From positions 1 through 64,000 of the forward strand of contig JAKADK010000002.1 in the NCBI GenBank assembly GCA_021820665.1: a DNA stretch of 64,000 bases. Direction: 5' to 3'. The notes below the pieces were generated by a model. That model saw only the letters and a list, made by a program, of their open reading frames with translations. It did not search any database and was not told the DNA's origin. Below, piece after piece: positions 2,275 through 9,767 of this stretch; the stretch's first letter is position 1, and each line of letters starts with the position of its first letter. The DNA is from Actinomycetes bacterium. Its GTDB lineage: Bacteria; Actinomycetota; Acidimicrobiia; Acidimicrobiales; RAAP-2. Position numbers and translations under genes: made by a program.

Positions 2275-3651
2275 TCATCGTGGGGCCGACCCCAACGAAG
2301 GCGGCGGTCCGGTCTTCGAACCCCAACGGGCCTTTGCCCGCTCCAGGAACGGCGGCTCCTCGCTCGGTCCAGCTCCTTTGACGACGTCCTCGAAGCCCGG
2401 CATGAACCCAGTCTTTCGGTGATGTGCCTCGCGCACCTCGCGCACCACGCTCTCCCAACCCGCGCCCAGACCCGCCTTCTCGTAGCACCGCTTGGCCCGT
2501 TCGAAGTTCCCGAGTGCGGCACCGTAGTACTTGCTCTTCTTCGCGTTGACGACGCGCATCCCCATTGCTCGCCAGAGTCGAGCGGCTTCTCCAACGTGGG
2601 CCTTCTCGAGCCTTCGCGCAGCGGGTTCCAACGCGTAGTGGCTCACGGCCTCGAGCTCCTCATCGGTGCTCCGCTTCACCAGCGCTGAAAGGCGTGCGGT
2701 CTCCTTGGTCTCGACGAAGAGGCCGATCAAGGAGTACAGATCTGCTCCTGCCGCCGCCTCCATCGCCTTGGCGTGCCAGGACGCACGGTCTTGCTTGGGG
2801 GCGAACTTCATCAGGTCGTCGTAGGTGTACTTGCTCGGATGCTCGCGGAACTCGGCCCAGGCCGACGCGAGGGCCTCTTGGTCACGACCGAGCTTGCGTA
2901 GCAGCTCGCGTCTCAGGTTTTGGAGCTCGTGGTCGGCGGACGAGCCCCGAGGGTCCTTCGCCGTGATCTCGATGCCCCGCTCGACCCACGAAAGGGCCTC
3001 TTCGGGCTTGCGCTTCGCGATGAGCATTCTGGCGATGGCATGGCAGTCCTTCGCGCTCAGGCCCGTCTGCTGCGCGAGCGCGACGTAGGCCGCAACGTCC
3101 TTCTGTCCGACGTGCAGCGCGCGCAGCACCTCGGCCCAGCGTCGCTGCTTGTAGCCGGTACTGCGTCCATCCGGCCCGTCCGCCGGCCCGTCGCAGGCGG
3201 CCAACCGCTCGCGGGCTCGGGCAACGAGGGCGGCCAACCCCGCCTTGTCGAGCACCGACGCCACCTTGGTCTCCAGGCCGTAGCAGAAGCCGTAGGGGTC
3301 GTCGTCCATCCATCCGAGGAGGCGAGACACCGTGTCCTCTGGGGCCGCCCCGGCCGCCTGGCAGGCCTTCACCCACCCGCAGAACAGGTCCTCGACGAAC
3401 ATGCCGAACGCGCCGCTCGAATCGTCGAGCTCCTCCGCCTTCTCGTAGCAGCCGGCAAGAAACGCCTCGTAGAGCGCGACCGCCCGACCAGGTGCGCTCT
3501 CGAGGAGCGATGCGATATCGCGTTCGACCTCCTCGAGGTCGCGCACGAAGGAAAAGCACGAGCGGTCGCCGACGAAACGACCCGGGTCGAGCGCCGCCTC
3601 GATCTCCCGTTCGAGCGGGTCACGCGACCCGCGGGCGACCTTCTTGGTCAC
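2275..3651 (-). CDS. Conserved alpha-solenoid (TPR-like) protein, DUF6880-like
   Basis: The protein has about 458 residues from GTG 3651. It opens with a DPLEREIEAALDPGRFV segment, then EAFLAGCYEKAEELDDSSG and LLGWMDDDPYGFCY, followed by many paired helices (for example KPEEALSWVERGIEI and EPAARRLEKAHVGEAARLW) typical of TPR-like solenoids. It ends with HHRKTGFMPGFEDV and FLERAKARWG. I recall this pattern from conserved hypothetical proteins related to DUF6880, some linked to SWIM zinc-finger proteins; the family name is moderately secure and the function unknown. The GTG start overlaps the preceding gene's stop by 4 bp (3648-3651), which fixes the start and makes it the last gene of a three-gene coupled operon. 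A scaffold or binding role is inferred. Confidence 0.7.
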   Translation of the reverse strand: MTKKVARGSRDPLEREIEAALDPGRFVGDRSCFSFVRDLEEVERDIASLLESAPGRAVALYEAFLAGCYEKAEELDDSSGAFGMFVEDLFCGWVKACQAAGAAPEDTVSRLLGWMDDDPYGFCYGLETKVASVLDKAGLAALVARARERLAACDGPADGPDGRSTGYKQRRWAEVLRALHVGQKDVAAYVALAQQTGLSAKDCHAIARMLIAKRKPEEALSWVERGIEITAKDPRGSSADHELQNLRRELLRKLGRDQEALASAWAEFREHPSKYTYDDLMKFAPKQDRASWHAKAMEAAAGADLYSLIGLFVETKETARLSALVKRSTDEELEAVSHYALEPAARRLEKAHVGEAARLWRAMGMRVVNAKKSKYYGAALGNFERAKRCYEKAGLGAGWESVVREVREAHHRKTGFMPGFEDVVKGAGPSEEPPFLERAKARWGSKTGPPPSLGSAPR

Positions 3652-4022
3652 CGTCGGCCCCGTGAAGCACCCCGGGCGTTCGTTGCCTTCGGTCGCGCCT
3701 CGTCGTCCGGCTCCGCACGGAAGCCAGAATCGTCGCCCAGGTGGAAGTAGATGCGACCGCGCAGCGAGCCGTCGTCTTCCTGCACCGCCCACCCACGGCC
3801 GCTTGCATGCTCGCAGTCGTCGTGACCCTCCCACGAGAACTCGACACCGGGGCGCCCGTCGCGAGAGGCCTCCCGCCAGTCGAGGCCGCCCTCGACAGCG
3901 ATGAAGCCAAGGCTGCCCGTGTGATCTCGGCCGAACGCGATGAAGCCAGGCCCGACCAGGTCGACGTCTTCTTGCGCCCAGAGCTCCATCTCTGCGATCC
4001 GCCACCTGCCCACGAGGCTCAT
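3648..4022 (-). CDS. Conserved small hypothetical protein (MSLVGRW family)
   Basis: This 124-residue acidic protein starts MSLVGRWRIAEMELW and contains DLVGPGFIAFG, VEFSWEGHDD and GSLRGRIYFHLGDDSGF. The alternation of short beta-like segments suggests a small beta-rich fold. I have seen very similar small proteins in many bacteria, usually annotated hypothetical. The last 20 residues after the DDSGF motif are Arg/Ala-rich and look unrelated to the conserved core, so the C-terminus may have been altered. Both ends overlap neighbours by 4 bp (start in 4019-4022, stop in 3648-3651), giving a strictly coupled operon with the solenoid protein and the upstream conserved hypothetical protein. Confidence 0.75.
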   Translation of the reverse strand: MSLVGRWRIAEMELWAQEDVDLVGPGFIAFGRDHTGSLGFIAVEGGLDWREASRDGRPGVEFSWEGHDDCEHASGRGWAVQEDDGSLRGRIYFHLGDDSGFRAEPDDEARPKATNARGASRGRR

Positions 4023-5188
4023 CGTTGTCCCCCACGCACGTCGCCCGGACCGTCGATGAGACCGGCGCGCTCGAGGCGCCGGAGGAGGCCCTGCTTCTTC
4101 GAGTGCTGCTGGCGCAGCTCCACGAGGCGCCGATCGAACACCTCCTGGCGCCGCTCACGCTCGCTGACCGCCCGCAAGTCCCCGAGAAGCTCGACCGCTT
4201 CGTCGTACCGAGCAGGCTGGCGCGTGCCGATGGCGGCGTACACCCGCTCCCAGGCTTGGTCCTGGCGCGGCGCCAGCGCAGCCAGGTGCCGCTCGTGAGC
4301 AGCTGCTTGAGCGTGCTCTCGCCGGGCCTGCTCCTGCGCCCGGCGCTCAGCAGTAAGGCGCGCTCGCTGCTCGCGGTGTCGCCGCGCCGCGTCCTTGAGC
4401 TCGGCCACTGAGCGGCTTCCCTTCTCATCCGCGGAGCCATCGCGTCCGCCGCGGAAGCGCCGCGCCAGCTCCATGCCGAGGTTCGGGTCGCCGCTCGCGA
4501 GACGAGCGAGCAACGCATCCTTCTCTTCTACGGGCAGGCGGGCTACCCAGCCGGTCAGCTCGGCGGCGGAGGGCTCTATCGGGTCCAGCGGCTTGCTCGC
4601 CTCGGCCGCCACCGACAGCAGGTCTTCGTCGAGGCGCAGGAACTCAGCGAAACTCTGCAGCGCCGCGCTCAAAGTCGCAAGACCCGGCGGGACGGCCGGC
4701 TCGAGCTGGTTGTGCTCCGACTCGCCCGCGTCTACGGAGAGCAGCCACGCCAGGTACAAGAGCCTCCGGTCTCCGCCGGCCAGCTCGGAGCGCACCGGGA
4801 TGATCGAGCTGAGCGAGTCCTCGCCGCCTTCCTCCCAGTACTCATCCTCCTTCTCGCTCGTCAGCTGGACGATCACGTGGTCCCCTGCCGTCCACGCACA
4901 CGCCGAGTCGGTCGCGGCGTAACGAGACGCAGCCTCGACGTCGAGCAGTGACGCCGGCAGCCGCAACATCAGCTGGCGGGTCCCCCAGTTGGCGAGGTAC
5001 AAGAACGCGTCGAAGTACTGGGACATCAGCAGCCGCGGGTCGCCCTTGAAGTCGCCCCAGTGGTAGGTGTTGACAAAGCGCGTCGCAGTGATCCGAGCCC
5101 GCGTGGACAGCGCCCGCAGCTCCTGCTGCTGGCGAGCGTCGAGCGGCCGGTCGATGGCGAGGAACTCGTAGTACTGGTACTCGCTCAC
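4019..5188 (-). CDS. Conserved hypothetical protein with central coiled coil
   Basis: The start is GTG 5188, preceded by a strong GGAGGAGG ribosome-binding site 8-9 bases upstream; an open frame runs further 5' but has no such signal. The N-terminus (SEYQYYEFLAIDRPL, then a NTYHWGDFKGDP segment and MSQYFDAFLYLANWG) is a signature I associate with a widespread hypothetical family in bacteria. Residues about 255-320 (SVAELKDAARRHREQRARL onwards) are a highly charged Arg/Ala/Glu helix, probably a coiled coil, followed by a QPARYDEAVELLGDL helical segment. No membrane segment or signal peptide is present. It is the first gene of the 5188-to-2275 operon. Part of its 3' half is duplicated as a relic at 11253-11625. 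Function unknown. Confidence 0.75.
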   Translation of the reverse strand: MSEYQYYEFLAIDRPLDARQQQELRALSTRARITATRFVNTYHWGDFKGDPRLLMSQYFDAFLYLANWGTRQLMLRLPASLLDVEAASRYAATDSACAWTAGDHVIVQLTSEKEDEYWEEGGEDSLSSIIPVRSELAGGDRRLLYLAWLLSVDAGESEHNQLEPAVPPGLATLSAALQSFAEFLRLDEDLLSVAAEASKPLDPIEPSAAELTGWVARLPVEEKDALLARLASGDPNLGMELARRFRGGRDGSADEKGSRSVAELKDAARRHREQRARLTAERRAQEQARREHAQAAAHERHLAALAPRQDQAWERVYAAIGTRQPARYDEAVELLGDLRAVSERERRQEVFDRRLVELRQQHSKKQGLLRRLERAGLIDGPGDVRGGQR

Positions 5189-5300
5189 GGGCGGGTGACC
5201 TCCTCCTTCGAGCGGCCCGTGACGACCATAGACGCCTTCAGCGCGGTCCTGGGGACTTCGGTGGTCAACGGACAACGACCGCCCCGAGCCGGCTGCCGGC

Positions 5301-5759
5301 TCAAGACCATGATCCGGCACTCGGGTCCCAGGACAGTCCTGCCACGTTGCCCGAAACGGCAGGGCCGGCGAACACGACGACCGCCGAGACCACTTCGGCA
5401 AGTTGAGCTGGGAGGCGCTCCTCCAACTGTTGCTTTCTCCTCCACGCTGCCCAGCGCGCCTGTCCGATCTCCCCGTAGCCGTCGAGGACCCGGACGAGGG
5501 GAACCAGCTCGACCTGCCGGTGGCGGGCCACCTGGCGAACCGAGCCGGCGAGATCCGCTCCGGCCAGCGCATGACGGCGGCTCAGAAGGTAGATGTCGGC
5601 GAAGTCCCTCCAGCGGGTGTTGACCGTCCCTCGTGCAACGGCAGTGACGATCTTCTCGCCGTGCACCATCACGAGCGGATAGCCCCGCACGACGACCTCA
5701 CCGCCGAGCAGGCGTGGAAGGTGCAAGTCCTGGGGTGCGGGAGTGAGGGTGGTGCGACG
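5301..5759 (-). pseudogene. AbiEii/AbiGii-type toxin, C-terminal half only
   Basis: The frame reads TPAPQDLHLPRLLGGE, then GYPLVMVHGEKIVTA, NTRWRDFADIYLLSRRH and WAAWRRKQQLEERLP before stopping at 5301. These are hallmarks of the C-terminal part of AbiEii-type nucleotidyltransferase toxins of abortive-infection systems. The N-terminal nucleotidyltransferase half, which holds the GSxxD-type catalytic motif, is missing: similarity stops near 5755, where the promoter region of the next operon begins. No AbiEi antitoxin is next to it. The remnant should be inactive. A shorter, diverged copy of the same region lies at 11638-11838. Confidence 0.75.
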
Positions 5760-5800
5760 GCCATGTGGACATATAGCAACAGTTGTTGTAGTGTGTCAAC

Positions 5801-6037
5801 GTGACTCGTAAGCGGCACCCCTCAGGGGTGATCGAGGAAGCGGTCCGCTATGCCGAGTCGAACGGCTGGAGCTACCGGCCATCGGGAAAGTCTGCCCACG
5901 CCTGGGGCTTCGTCGTCTGTCCAGGAGACTGTCCACAGGTCGCCGTGTGGTCCACTCCGCGAGTTCCTGAGCACCACGCCCGGGCCATTCGGCGAGCCGC
6001 CGATCGATGCCCTCATTTCACAGGAGGATCTACATGA
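5801..6037 (+). CDS. Small HicA-like protein
   Basis: This is a 78-residue protein starting at GTG 5801: TRKRHPSGVIEEAVRYAESNGW, then GKSAHAWGFVVCP with a second Cys soon after, QVAVWSTPRVPEHHARAIRRAADRC. The helix, the GH-type turn with strands, and the final basic helix recall HicA-like small toxins, a family typed by a catalytic His on a double-stranded RNA-binding-like fold; here His33 in the SAHAW motif could play that role, but this is inference. Cys and His residues could also bind a metal. The stop overlaps the next start by 4 bp (ATGA, 6034-6037). A short palindrome CAACAGTTG (5777-5785) just upstream could be an operator. Confidence 0.65.
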   Translation: MTRKRHPSGVIEEAVRYAESNGWSYRPSGKSAHAWGFVVCPGDCPQVAVWSTPRVPEHHARAIRRAADRCPHFTGGST

Positions 6038-6564
6038 CCACCTACAACGTCACGCTTCTGGTCGCTGGTGTCGACGAGGAGGGTCTCGACGACATCTACG
6101 CCGCGACCGACGGTGCCGCCACTGTCGAGATTGGCGACCGTTGGACCAGCACGGTCGGATTCGACATCGAGGCCGGCACCTTCGCCGATGCGGTCCTGCA
6201 GGCCATCGACCAGATCGAGCAGGTCCCTGGCCTGAGCGTTGTCCGGGTCGAGCCGGATCAGTTGGTCTGGGCGTCGGAGATAGCCGATCGGGTCGGGCGG
6301 ACCCGTCAGTCCATCGACCAGTTGGTCAAGGGGCAGCGAGGTCCCGGGGGGTTCCCAGCCCCGGTGTCGGGGAACGTGCGGAACCCGCTGTGGCGCTGGG
6401 CCGACGTCGAGGCATGGTTTGCTGCCTACGAGCACCGCGAGATCGATACCGAGCGCCCGGCAGTGATCGGGGCGATCAACGGAGCACTTGAGGCACGGCG
6501 CAACCTGCACGTCCGGCCGAACCCCGAACTGGCGGCCAGACTGGAAGCATTGATCGGAGCGTGA
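6034..6564 (+). CDS. Two-domain protein: alpha/beta N-terminus and helix-turn-helix
   Basis: The protein has 176 residues and starts at ATG 6034 after a good AGGAGG site. Residues 1-75 alternate strands and helices ([50 protein letters not shown]), suggesting a small ferredoxin-like or dodecin-like fold. Residues about 76-125 ([21 protein letters not shown], then a W-x-W segment in [12 protein letters not shown]) look like an excisionase/AlpA-type HTH that would bind DNA. The rest is helical. Together with the upstream HicA-like gene (4-bp overlap), it has the layout of a two-gene toxin-antitoxin or regulator pair, and the primase-helicase follows 16 bp downstream. An antitoxin or regulatory role is inference. 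Confidence 0.65.
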
Positions 6565-6580
6565 CCAAGACGAGGTCATC

Positions 6581-8968
6581 GTGGCCGAAAGGCTGAGCGT
6601 CGATATGTCCGGCTCTGCTGTTTCCGATCACGAGGCGGAGCTGCGCGAGCTGCGTCGTGAGATTGAGCGGCTTCGTGCCGAGAACGATCGGCTGGCGCGG
6701 CTCGTCGGTTTGGTCGGTCCGCGTCCCTTGCCCGACGAGGCAGCCCGTTCACCGCTTTTCGGCGGACTCCCGGGTGCGGTGAACCGGTCCTCCTCGAAAG
6801 CGGACAAGGTCACGTTCTTTCGGCACCTCTTTGCCGGCCGCGACGACGTGCACGCGCTGCGATGGGAGAACGATCGTACGGGCCGAGCCGGATGGATGCC
6901 TGCGGTCGAAGGCGGCTTCCGACGAGGTCAGACCAACCGGACGTACCTGCCGCTCACCGACGACGTGATCACCGCTCACCTCGCCGGCACCATTCACGCC
7001 GGGTTGTACCCGTTGATGAACGGAGACGCCTGCAGGCTGCTCGTCTCCGACTTCGACGGGCCTATGGCACTCCTGGACGCCCTCGCCTACACCAAGGCAG
7101 CCCGGTCCTTCGACGTTCCGACGGCACTGGAAGTCTCCCGCTCTGGCTCGGGAGCCCACGTCTGGATGTTCTTCGCCGATGCGGTAGCGGCCACGATGGC
7201 TCGCAGGGTCGGCGTGGGTCTCCTCCGTGAGGCGATGGCGATCCGCGGCGAGTTGGACCTGGCCAGCTATGACCGATTGTTCCCGGCCCAGGATTTTCTG
7301 CCGGCATCGGGGTCGATCGGCAACTTGATCGCGCTGCCGCTGCAGGGCAAGTGCCGAAAGCAGGGAACGACCGTCTTCCTCGATTTGGCGACGCTGGAGC
7401 CCCACGAAGACCAGTTCGGCTACCTGTCGCATGTGGAGCGCCTTACCCCGAAGCAAGTGGCAGACCGCGCAGAGGCCATGCGGCCGCTCACCGTCGGACC
7501 TGGTGTCCGTCGCCTCCACGCCAGTGGGGCGACCCGGATGCACCCGCCGGCGCCAGCGGTGATCCGCGCTCGCTTGGGGGCAGGGATCTCACTGGAGCGT
7601 GCCGGGCTGCCTCCGGCCCTTCTCGGATCGCTCAAGCACGCCGCGTCGTTGCACAATCCCGAGTTCTACAAGCGCGAGAAGCGGCGACTGTCCACCTACG
7701 GCGTTCCCCGCTTCGTCCGCTGCTACCACGAGGATCTGGAGTGGCTACACCTACCTCGCGGACTCCGTGAGGTGGTCCAGGATCTGGTATTGCAGGCCGG
7801 CAGCCGACTGGAGATCACCGACGACCGGCCAGAACCGCCGCTCCATGACTTCTCGTTCAACGCGCAGCTTCTCCCGGCTCAGCAGCGCGCTCTGGACGCC
7901 ATCCTCGAACACGAGTTGGGAGTGCTGGTGGCACCACCTGGGGCGGGAAAGACCGTCGTCGGCTGCGCGCTGATTGCCAAGACTGGTCTCCCGACGCTCG
8001 TACTCGTCGATCGGACGGCGTTGCTCGACCAGTGGCGTGGCCAGGTCGAGACCCTGCTTGGCGTGAAACCGGGCCAGCTCGGTGGGGGTCGTCGGCGACG
8101 CAGCGGATTGGTCGACCTGGCGAGCCTGCAGACGCTCGCCCGCCGGGACGACCTCGCGGAGCTCCTTGCTGACTACGGGCTGGTGATCGCCGACGAATGC
8201 CATCATCTCCCCGCGGCCACGCTGGAGCGGGCTGTTCGCCAACTCCCGACTCGGCGCTGGCTCGGCCTGACGGCCACCCCATACCGGAGCGATGGTCTCG
8301 ACCAGATGATCCTCATGCAGTGCGGCCCCGTGCGTCATCGGATTCCGGTGGAGACGACAACGGACCAGCCATCAGCTGCGACCACGACGCGACACGTCCT
8401 GGTTCACAGGACCACGTTCCGGTACGACTCCGACTTCGACTCCAGCACCCTCGGCATGATCCAGGACATTTACCGGTCCCTCGTCCATGACGAGCAGCGC
8501 AACGCCGCCATCATCGCCGACGTCCAAGGCGCGCTTCGCCGTGGTCGTCACTGTTTGCTCCTGACCAGCCGAACGGCTCACATGGAGATCCTGGCTGGCG
8601 GTCTACGAGAGGCCGGGCACTCACCGGTCTCGCTCCACGGCAAGCTGGGCGCCAGAGCGAGGCGTACGGCCATCGAGTCCCTGAAGGTCACCGACGGCGG
8701 ACCGCCGCTCTTGGCCGTTGCTACCGGCCCGTACATTGGCGAAGGTTTCGACTGCCCCGCGTTGGATACCGTCTTCCTGGTCTTCCCGATGAAGTTCAAG
8801 GGACGGGTCGTGCAGTACGTGGGTCGGGTGCTCCGTCCCTATCCGGGCAAAACCAGCATCGAGGTCCACGACTACGTCGACGTCAGCATCCCAGTCCTTG
8901 CGTACACCCACACGGAACGATGTGCAGGCTACGCGAGTCTCGGCTTCCCATCACCAGTCGAGCTGTAG
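6581..8968 (+). CDS. TOTE-type AEP primase fused to SF2 helicase
   Basis: The protein has 795 residues. Residues 16-46 form a leucine-rich coiled coil. Residues about 70-300 carry an archaeo-eukaryotic primase domain: [18 protein letters not shown] start, catalytic DxD in VSDFDG (Asp157, Asp159), an SGSGAHVW motif (His193) and a third acidic residue in LDLA (Asp269). Residues about 425-780 are an SF2 helicase with Walker A APPGAGKT (451-458), DECH (538-541), TATPYR (564-569) and QYVGRVLRP as motif VI. This architecture matches the primase-helicases of TOTE conflict systems, thought to defend against invading DNA. GTG 6581 has a weak CGAGG site. It forms the third gene of the 5801-8968 operon. 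Confidence 0.85.
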
Positions 8969-9157: not shown

Positions 9158-9367
9158 ATGGCAAAGCAAACCACCGTCAGGTTGCCCGATGAGCTGGCCG
9201 ACGAGGCGGAGGCGGTTGCTCGCGTTCGCGGTACCAGCATGAACGCGTTGATCGTCGACTCGCTCAGCGCTGAGGTTGCGCGCGTCCGGGAGGACAAGGA
9301 CTTCGTGACCCGCGCTCGCAAGCTGCTGGAGCGAGACAAGGAGCTCCTCGACCGACTCGCCAAGTGA
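9158..9367 (+). CDS. Ribbon-helix-helix antitoxin
   Basis: A 69-residue protein, MAKQTTVRLPDELADEAEAV, then RVRGTSMNALIVDSL. The TTVRLP strand followed by two helices is the ribbon-helix-helix DNA-binding fold; the charged C-terminal helix (EDKDFVTRARKLLERDKELLDRL) would wrap the toxin. ATG 9158 is chosen because it gives the canonical N-terminal strand and sits right after the operator palindromes. Its stop overlaps the downstream Fic/Doc remnant (GTGA, 9364-9367), the classic antitoxin-toxin arrangement. It may persist as an orphan, since the toxin is broken. Confidence 0.8.
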   Translation: MAKQTTVRLPDELADEAEAVARVRGTSMNALIVDSLSAEVARVREDKDFVTRARKLLERDKELLDRLAK

Positions 9368-9767
9368 TGCGATGCCTCAGCCTGGCCGAGTACCTCTGGC
9401 TGGCAGAGCAGGTCACCGGGATCGAGGCCGCGGTGCTCTCGAAGGCGGCGAGGATCGATCTGGCTGATTCGGCGCTGCACGCGCCCTCTGCCAGCTTCGG
9501 CGGCGAGGCGTTCTACCCCGACATCATCGACACGGCGGCGGTGCCCACCTGTCGCCTCGCATGAACTACCCGCTCCCCGATGGGAACAAGCGTGCTGTAT
9601 GGGCCGCGCTCGTCCTCTTCCTCGATCTCAACAGGATCGTCTGGTCGCCGGATCCGCCTGATGTCGACGAGGCCGAGCAGGCCATGCTGGCTGTGGCTGC
9701 ACATGACGTGGAAGAGCCATGGTTCGCCGACTGGCTCCGTGACCGCGTGGAACTGCCCTGGGGCTGA
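9364..9767 (+). pseudogene. Fic/Doc-family toxin, frameshifted
   Basis: The first part (9364-9564) reads LSLAEYLWLAEQVTGIEAA, then SFGGEAFYPDIIDTAAV, and stops at TGA. The second part (9561-9767) resumes in another frame with NYPLPDGNKRAVWAALVLFLDLN. Together they make one death-on-curing/Fic protein broken by a single-base frameshift near 9560. The Fic motif HPFx[D/E]GNKR appears as YPLPDGNKR, so the catalytic His is replaced by Tyr as well. Both changes predict loss of AMP- or phosphate-transfer activity. The position right behind an RHH antitoxin supports the identity. Confidence 0.8.

Follow-up and report, generated by a model that had tools for sequence, protein, structure and literature searches.

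Introduction

Toxin-antitoxin systems of HicAB Class 3 are organised with the hicA gene first, followed by the gene for a HicB protein carrying a C-terminal helix-turn-helix (HTH) domain (PMC10865869), and the histidine of the GSH motif of HicA is essential (PMC3969222). TOTE conflict systems are named after their TPR, OB, TBP and Effector components (PMC12458937). The PDC candidates of PADLOC were obtained by a guilt-by-embedding approach and, for most of them, validation is pending (PMC12988326). One of these candidates, PDC-M06, is relevant here and our literature search yielded no paper naming it.

The locus considered below lies within the window, which is the whole 64,000-nucleotide stretch of DNA that was analysed. 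Its first two genes, which adjoin one another, match both of the PDC-M06 profiles; we refer to them as M06A and M06B, and to the pair as M06AB. Directly behind them lies a gene for an AEP primase-helicase and, in this, the window's trio differs from PDC-M06, which has no conserved third gene. The pair resembles HicAB Class 3 in its gene order, in the predicted fold of the toxin, in a histidine located in the beta1-beta2 loop, in the HTH domain of the partner protein and in a candidate operator at the promoter. It differs from HicAB in that neither product yields a Pfam or NCBIfam match to HicA or HicB, in that the N-terminal domain of M06B looks ferredoxin-like and is not recognisable as a HicB domain, and in that M06A, unlike HicA, carries a conserved TP motif and Cys residues. 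A further parallel is provided by the AbiE type IV toxin-antitoxin systems, which can also adjoin the same kind of primase-helicase gene, although the AbiE toxin and antitoxin families are unrelated to M06AB. We consider it fairly probable that M06AB constitutes an autonomous HicAB-like toxin-antitoxin cassette and that the AEP gene behind it is a separate gene and not a dedicated third component.

Organisation of the Locus

The three ORFs are co-directional and compactly arranged, with the first two overlapping by 4 bp (ATGA) and the third following after a gap of 16 bp (Table 1). This layout, including the gene sizes of 78, 176 and 795 aa, and the intact primase and helicase motifs of ORF 3, had been described correctly in an earlier, sequence-only reading of the window. 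A search for a terminator between M06AB and the AEP gene yielded none. All three ORFs are under purifying selection, with dN/dS values of 0.10 for ORF 1 and 0.09 for ORF 2, relative to locus L084, and of 0.14-0.19 for ORF 3, relative to loci L080 and L085.

Table 1. Features of the three-gene locus in the window and, where an L number is given, toxin-antitoxin genes at other loci.
Feature	Position	Strand	Remarks
Operator/promoter dyad	5765-5800	+	GTGGACA-TATAG-CAACA-GT-TGTTG-TAGTG-TGTCAAC
ORF 1 (M06A)	5801-6037	+	GTG start, 78 aa; HicA-like toxin candidate, invariant His33
ORF 2 (M06B)	6034-6564	+	ATG start, 176 aa; antitoxin/autorepressor candidate
ORF 3 (AEP primase-helicase)	6581-8968	+	GTG start, 795 aa
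AEP metal-binding motif SDFDG (DxD)	7046-7060	+	within ORF 3
Helicase motifs I to II (APPGAGKT ... DECH)	7931-8203	+	within ORF 3
AbiEii / AbiEi_2 / PemK / HigA-like genes	L061:5471-6391, L065:5381-6223, L145:2841-3953, L073:7396-8382, L062:8686-9087, L066:6640-7758, L064:4691-5047, L154:6410-6721		directly upstream of AEP-TOTE helicase genes, same strand, unrelated lineages		

M06A, a HicA-Like Toxin Candidate

ORF 1 matches the PDC-M06A profile of PADLOC (E 8.9e-22) and phrog_5923 of the PHROGs collection (E 7.5e-19). Its predicted structure shows an alpha-beta-beta-beta-alpha fold (pLDDT 86.9) and, when the model was compared with the PDB using Foldseek, the first four ranks were all occupied by HicA chains (6g26 twice, 4c26 and 4p78), the best match having a probability of 0.87 and an E value of 0.23. 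When ranked by Z score, HicA or HicBA-type toxin-antitoxin entries accounted for five of the seven top rows, with Z values of 4.8 to 3.6. A profile-profile comparison with HicA proteins of related genomes aligned the stretch alpha1-GW-beta1-His and placed His33 of M06A, which is invariant in 22 sequences, on the GSH histidine of HicA; in the model the residue occurs in the beta1-beta2 loop, as does the essential histidine of HicA. The profile score of 21.2 compares with a maximum of 16.4 for 60 column shuffles and with 11.9 for a reversed control, at a nominal probability of 19%. The description of ORF 1 as HicA-like in the earlier reading was, on the basis of the fold model, structure matches and profile alignment, a correct guess.

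None of 13 members matched the curated HicA model PF07927 at E 1, and a sequence search of the PDB with M06A gave matches at chance level only. Since the PF07927 match is absent, we call the pair HicAB-like and do not file it as a member of HicAB. In the record of phage Cyrano, the same pair is annotated as HicA toxin and putative antitoxin HicB. M06A is predicted to be a small mRNA-cleaving RNase that employs His33. Diverged relatives of gene 1 occur at L026:8595-8807 and L028:8743-8976, where the neighbouring gene is not gene 2, and they may form a further HicA-like family that has a different partner.

M06B, the HTH Partner

ORF 2 matches the PDC-M06B profile (E 1.3e-16) and phrog_2620 (E 8.9e-22). 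The structural model (pLDDT 85.7) has two domains, an N-terminal beta-alpha-beta-beta-alpha-beta domain, for which structure matches reveal a resemblance to general ferredoxin-like folds, and a C-terminal AlpA/MerR-like HTH domain with a weak match to AlpA (8c3t, E 0.015), in agreement with the assignment of an HTH protein made earlier. HicB was not among the fold matches listed for M06B, and this excludes nothing. M06B may employ one of its domains to bind and mask M06A, and may repress transcription by means of the HTH. Viral contigs carry the N-terminal domain of M06B in a form lacking the HTH (near 4001 in L131, L134 and L137, and near 887 in L139), and in L139 and L140 there is a short upstream ORF that resembles only the end of gene 1.

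Another reading of the pair takes M06B for a DNA-binding regulator, of excisionase type or otherwise, with M06A as a small accessory protein and no toxin present. The labelling of phrog_2620 as excisionase and transcriptional regulator, and the AlpA-like character of the HTH, both fit with this, but the predicted HicA-like fold of M06A with its conserved histidine does not, nor does the manner in which the two genes decay. Among 36 loci, M06A was broken and M06B retained in 11, and the reverse occurred in two, an asymmetry with a binomial p value of 4e-4 after allowing for gene lengths. Two of the cases of breakage lie on a single-contig chromosome (L166) and on the plasmid of an isolate (L092). 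More frequent breakage of M06A with retention of M06B is as expected of a toxin. Moreover, the gene following the pair is unrelated in most loci examined and there is no recurrent integrase among them. We therefore regard the regulator reading as quite improbable.

A Candidate Operator

Of 32 loci from distantly related hosts, 27 have a dyad of the form GTTGACA...TGTCAAC 5' of gene 1 and, in many of the actinobacterial loci, this dyad encloses an inner CAACA-nn-TGTTG repeat. The dyad in the window extends over 36 bp and ends exactly at the GTG start codon of gene 1, it overlaps the promoter, with a promoter-like -35 element (TGGACA/TTGACA) within its left arm, and it is unique in the 3.2 Mb genome. 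An operator of this type was not found 5' of the AEP genes of ten other lineages. Judged from its sequence, the dyad looks like an autorepressed toxin-antitoxin promoter to which M06B would be expected to bind.

Association of the Pair with the Primase-Helicase Gene

The sequence-only reading had interpreted the locus as a new, dedicated defence unit, with the two small proteins serving to control the primase-helicase or to arm it. Apart from the compact co-directional order with its 4-bp overlap and 16-bp gap, the lack of a detectable terminator and the purifying selection on all three genes, such a unit gains support from related loci, where the order of the three genes is kept intact in L080 and in degraded form in L081, L082 and L085. 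The wider distribution of the genes tells strongly against it. M06A adjoins M06B in 73 of 85 M06B loci, and does so in Actinobacteria, in alphaproteobacteria and as far afield as enterobacterial phage-plasmids, while an AEP primase-helicase gene is present at five of the 85 and absent from 80. The 85 include many near-identical phage-plasmids and do not amount to 85 independent events, but the AEP gene is found in no lineage other than the one to which all five belong, a recent lineage in which gene 2 is 90-100% identical.

Two genome samples gave the same picture. In a phylum-wide sample of 396 genomes, gene 1 was present in 15 and AEP-TOTE in 26, and in a class-wide sample of 345 genomes gene 2 matches occurred in 31 and AEP in nine; in both samples the window's genome was the only one in which they shared a locus, such that elsewhere among the 26 AEP-carrying genomes the pair does not lie beside the AEP gene. 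M06AB thus occurs mostly without the AEP gene, which the sequence-only reading had itself named as a finding that would break the link between the three genes, and AEP carriers mostly lack the pair; the proposed link fails.

In L083 (87% identity) the homology with the window breaks off 2 bp past the M06B stop codon, and in L084 (81% identity) it does so within M06B and a transposase-like ORF follows. Inside the lineage that carries the AEP gene, the parts decay separately. L082 has kept M06AB and lost both the AEP core and the helicase C-terminus, the AEP core of L081 has been removed by a different deletion, and L085 has kept a full AEP helicase with M06A destroyed and M06B truncated; most of the relatives come from metagenome bins, where assembly errors can mimic deletions and frameshifts. 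The deletions of the AEP catalytic core lie near 3878 in L081 and near 10806-10814 in L082, and gene 2 is intact in both. The neighbourhood data thus largely refute the dedicated three-gene unit and we reject it, regarding it as highly improbable; a false three-gene system is thereby removed.

In other genomes, the only candidate for a conserved third gene after M06AB was one for an unrelated ParA-like ATPase on a single plasmid, from Polymorphobacter (L093:5756-8507), where the small pair is followed by an overlapping ORF of 614 aa; it is a one-off. Viral contigs searched with actinobacterial-type M06A and with one M06B subgroup yielded no extra loci.

Proposed Mode of Action

For an autonomous HicAB-like cassette, we envisage that M06A would cleave mRNA and that M06B would mask M06A through one of its domains, while the HTH of M06B would repress the shared promoter by binding to the 36-bp dyad. 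Loss of M06B would then both free the toxin and raise its transcription. The M06AB cassette would move by itself between genomes and phages and, in one Acidimicrobiaceae-type lineage, a separate AEP gene of mobile or defence type lies 16 bp behind it. There, the AEP gene is probably transcribed from the repressed promoter of the cassette, on a shared transcript. Given the purifying selection on both AEP and M06AB, and since no terminator separates them, their co-expression may matter in the lineage that carries both.

The uncharacterised PDC-M06 thereby gains a concrete and testable identity, comprising a HicA-like toxin, an HTH antitoxin, a defined operator and the prediction of an essential histidine, and this identity holds from Actinobacteria to enterobacterial phage-plasmids.

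The Primase-Helicase and TOTE Systems

The product of ORF 3 consists of an N-terminal coiled coil, an AEP primase and an SF2 helicase. It matches the Pfam families AEP-TOTE (PF22548; 237.7 bits against a cut-off of 27, E 1.7e-70) and ResIII (75.3 bits, E 7e-21). The primase motifs SDFDG (aa 156-160) and SGSGAHVW (aa 188-195) are present, as are all of the diagnostic SF2 helicase motifs, namely APPGAGKT (451-458), DECH (538-541), LTATP (563-567) and QYVGRVLRP (745-753). Among PDB structures, the helicase part is nearest to XPB (XPBII)/RadD. Patterns derived from the protein revealed no phage-borne relatives in the viral contigs searched.

The primase-helicase had also been described as TOTE-type, with a shape that belongs to TOTE conflict systems. 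This stands as regards the AEP domain, which falls within the Pfam family that takes its name from TOTE, but it does not extend to membership of a TOTE conflict system. No gene for a TBP was detected in the window's genome (no PF00352 match at E 0.1) and there is no OB/CSD gene at the locus, the sole PF00313 match in the genome being a 95-aa frame on another contig. With two hallmarks of TOTE thus missing, TBP from the genome and OB from the locus, we reject the assignment of the locus as a TOTE system. The only indication of a TPR at the locus is a sub-threshold match in the DUF6880 protein encoded at 2278-3750 (-). A DUF6880 gene also occurs near the small pair on a Mycobacterium chimaera plasmid (L092:6861-8090, -).

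On a Sphingobium plasmid (L141:818-5301), an AEP-helicase gene overlaps the end of tniQ, which itself follows tniB, and this suggests that the AEP-helicase is a cargo or a component of a Tn7-like element.

Toxin-Antitoxin Genes Upstream of AEP-Helicase Genes

The immediate upstream neighbour on the same strand is a recognised toxin-antitoxin gene in nine of 38 AEP-helicase lineages, a pattern which was tested post hoc on small numbers and is a lead, not a result. The nine comprise five AbiEii genes, one AbiEi_2, one PemK/MazF, one HigA-like HTH gene, which is preceded by a HigB-like ORF as judged by eye, and M06B of the window. GmrSD_N, another defence gene, was employed as a control from the same sample of genomes; about three of 39 at most had a candidate upstream ORF, again by eye, and no toxin-antitoxin family was present among the 25 upstream families listed of a total of 29. 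The excess for AEP corresponds to a Fisher p value between 0.001 and 0.05, depending on whether the control is counted as 0 or 3. In addition, a HipBA pair precedes the AEP-helicase gene on an Undibacterium plasmid.

These counts could be read as showing that AEP primase-helicases recruit interchangeable toxin-antitoxin modules as guards, of which the window would carry a HicAB-like version, the modules either exacting a penalty when the helicase is lost or inhibited, or being triggered through it. Besides the post-hoc nature of the test and its small numbers, the presence of toxin-antitoxin genes downstream of AEP as well (in about four of 30) speaks against this, as a location in a toxin-antitoxin-rich island may suffice to explain the pattern. 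Moreover, the gaps vary, some of the modules are remnants, L082 has the toxin-antitoxin genes with no working helicase and L085 the helicase with no toxin-antitoxin genes. We consider the guard reading tentative and rather unlikely. Its broader form, in which AEP-TOTE would be a defence effector that recruits AbiE, MazEF, HigBA and HicAB-like guards or triggers directly upstream, with that of the window under the operator of the cassette, is likewise unlikely in our view. What is left of the proposed link is a looser association between these primase-helicases and a variety of toxin-antitoxin modules, and the counts raise the broader question of why AEP primase-helicase genes lie so often behind unrelated toxin-antitoxin modules.

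L080 carries an intact AbiE pair upstream (AbiEii 4256-5143, AbiEi 5143-5736). In the window, the AbiEii gene at the same place (5301-5726, -) is a truncated remnant, with about 1.3 kb missing relative to L080. Further along the window, at 9158-9764, a ribbon-helix-helix gene is followed by a frameshifted gene for a Doc-like toxin, and at the same place in L082 there is an uninterrupted Fic/Doc ORF.
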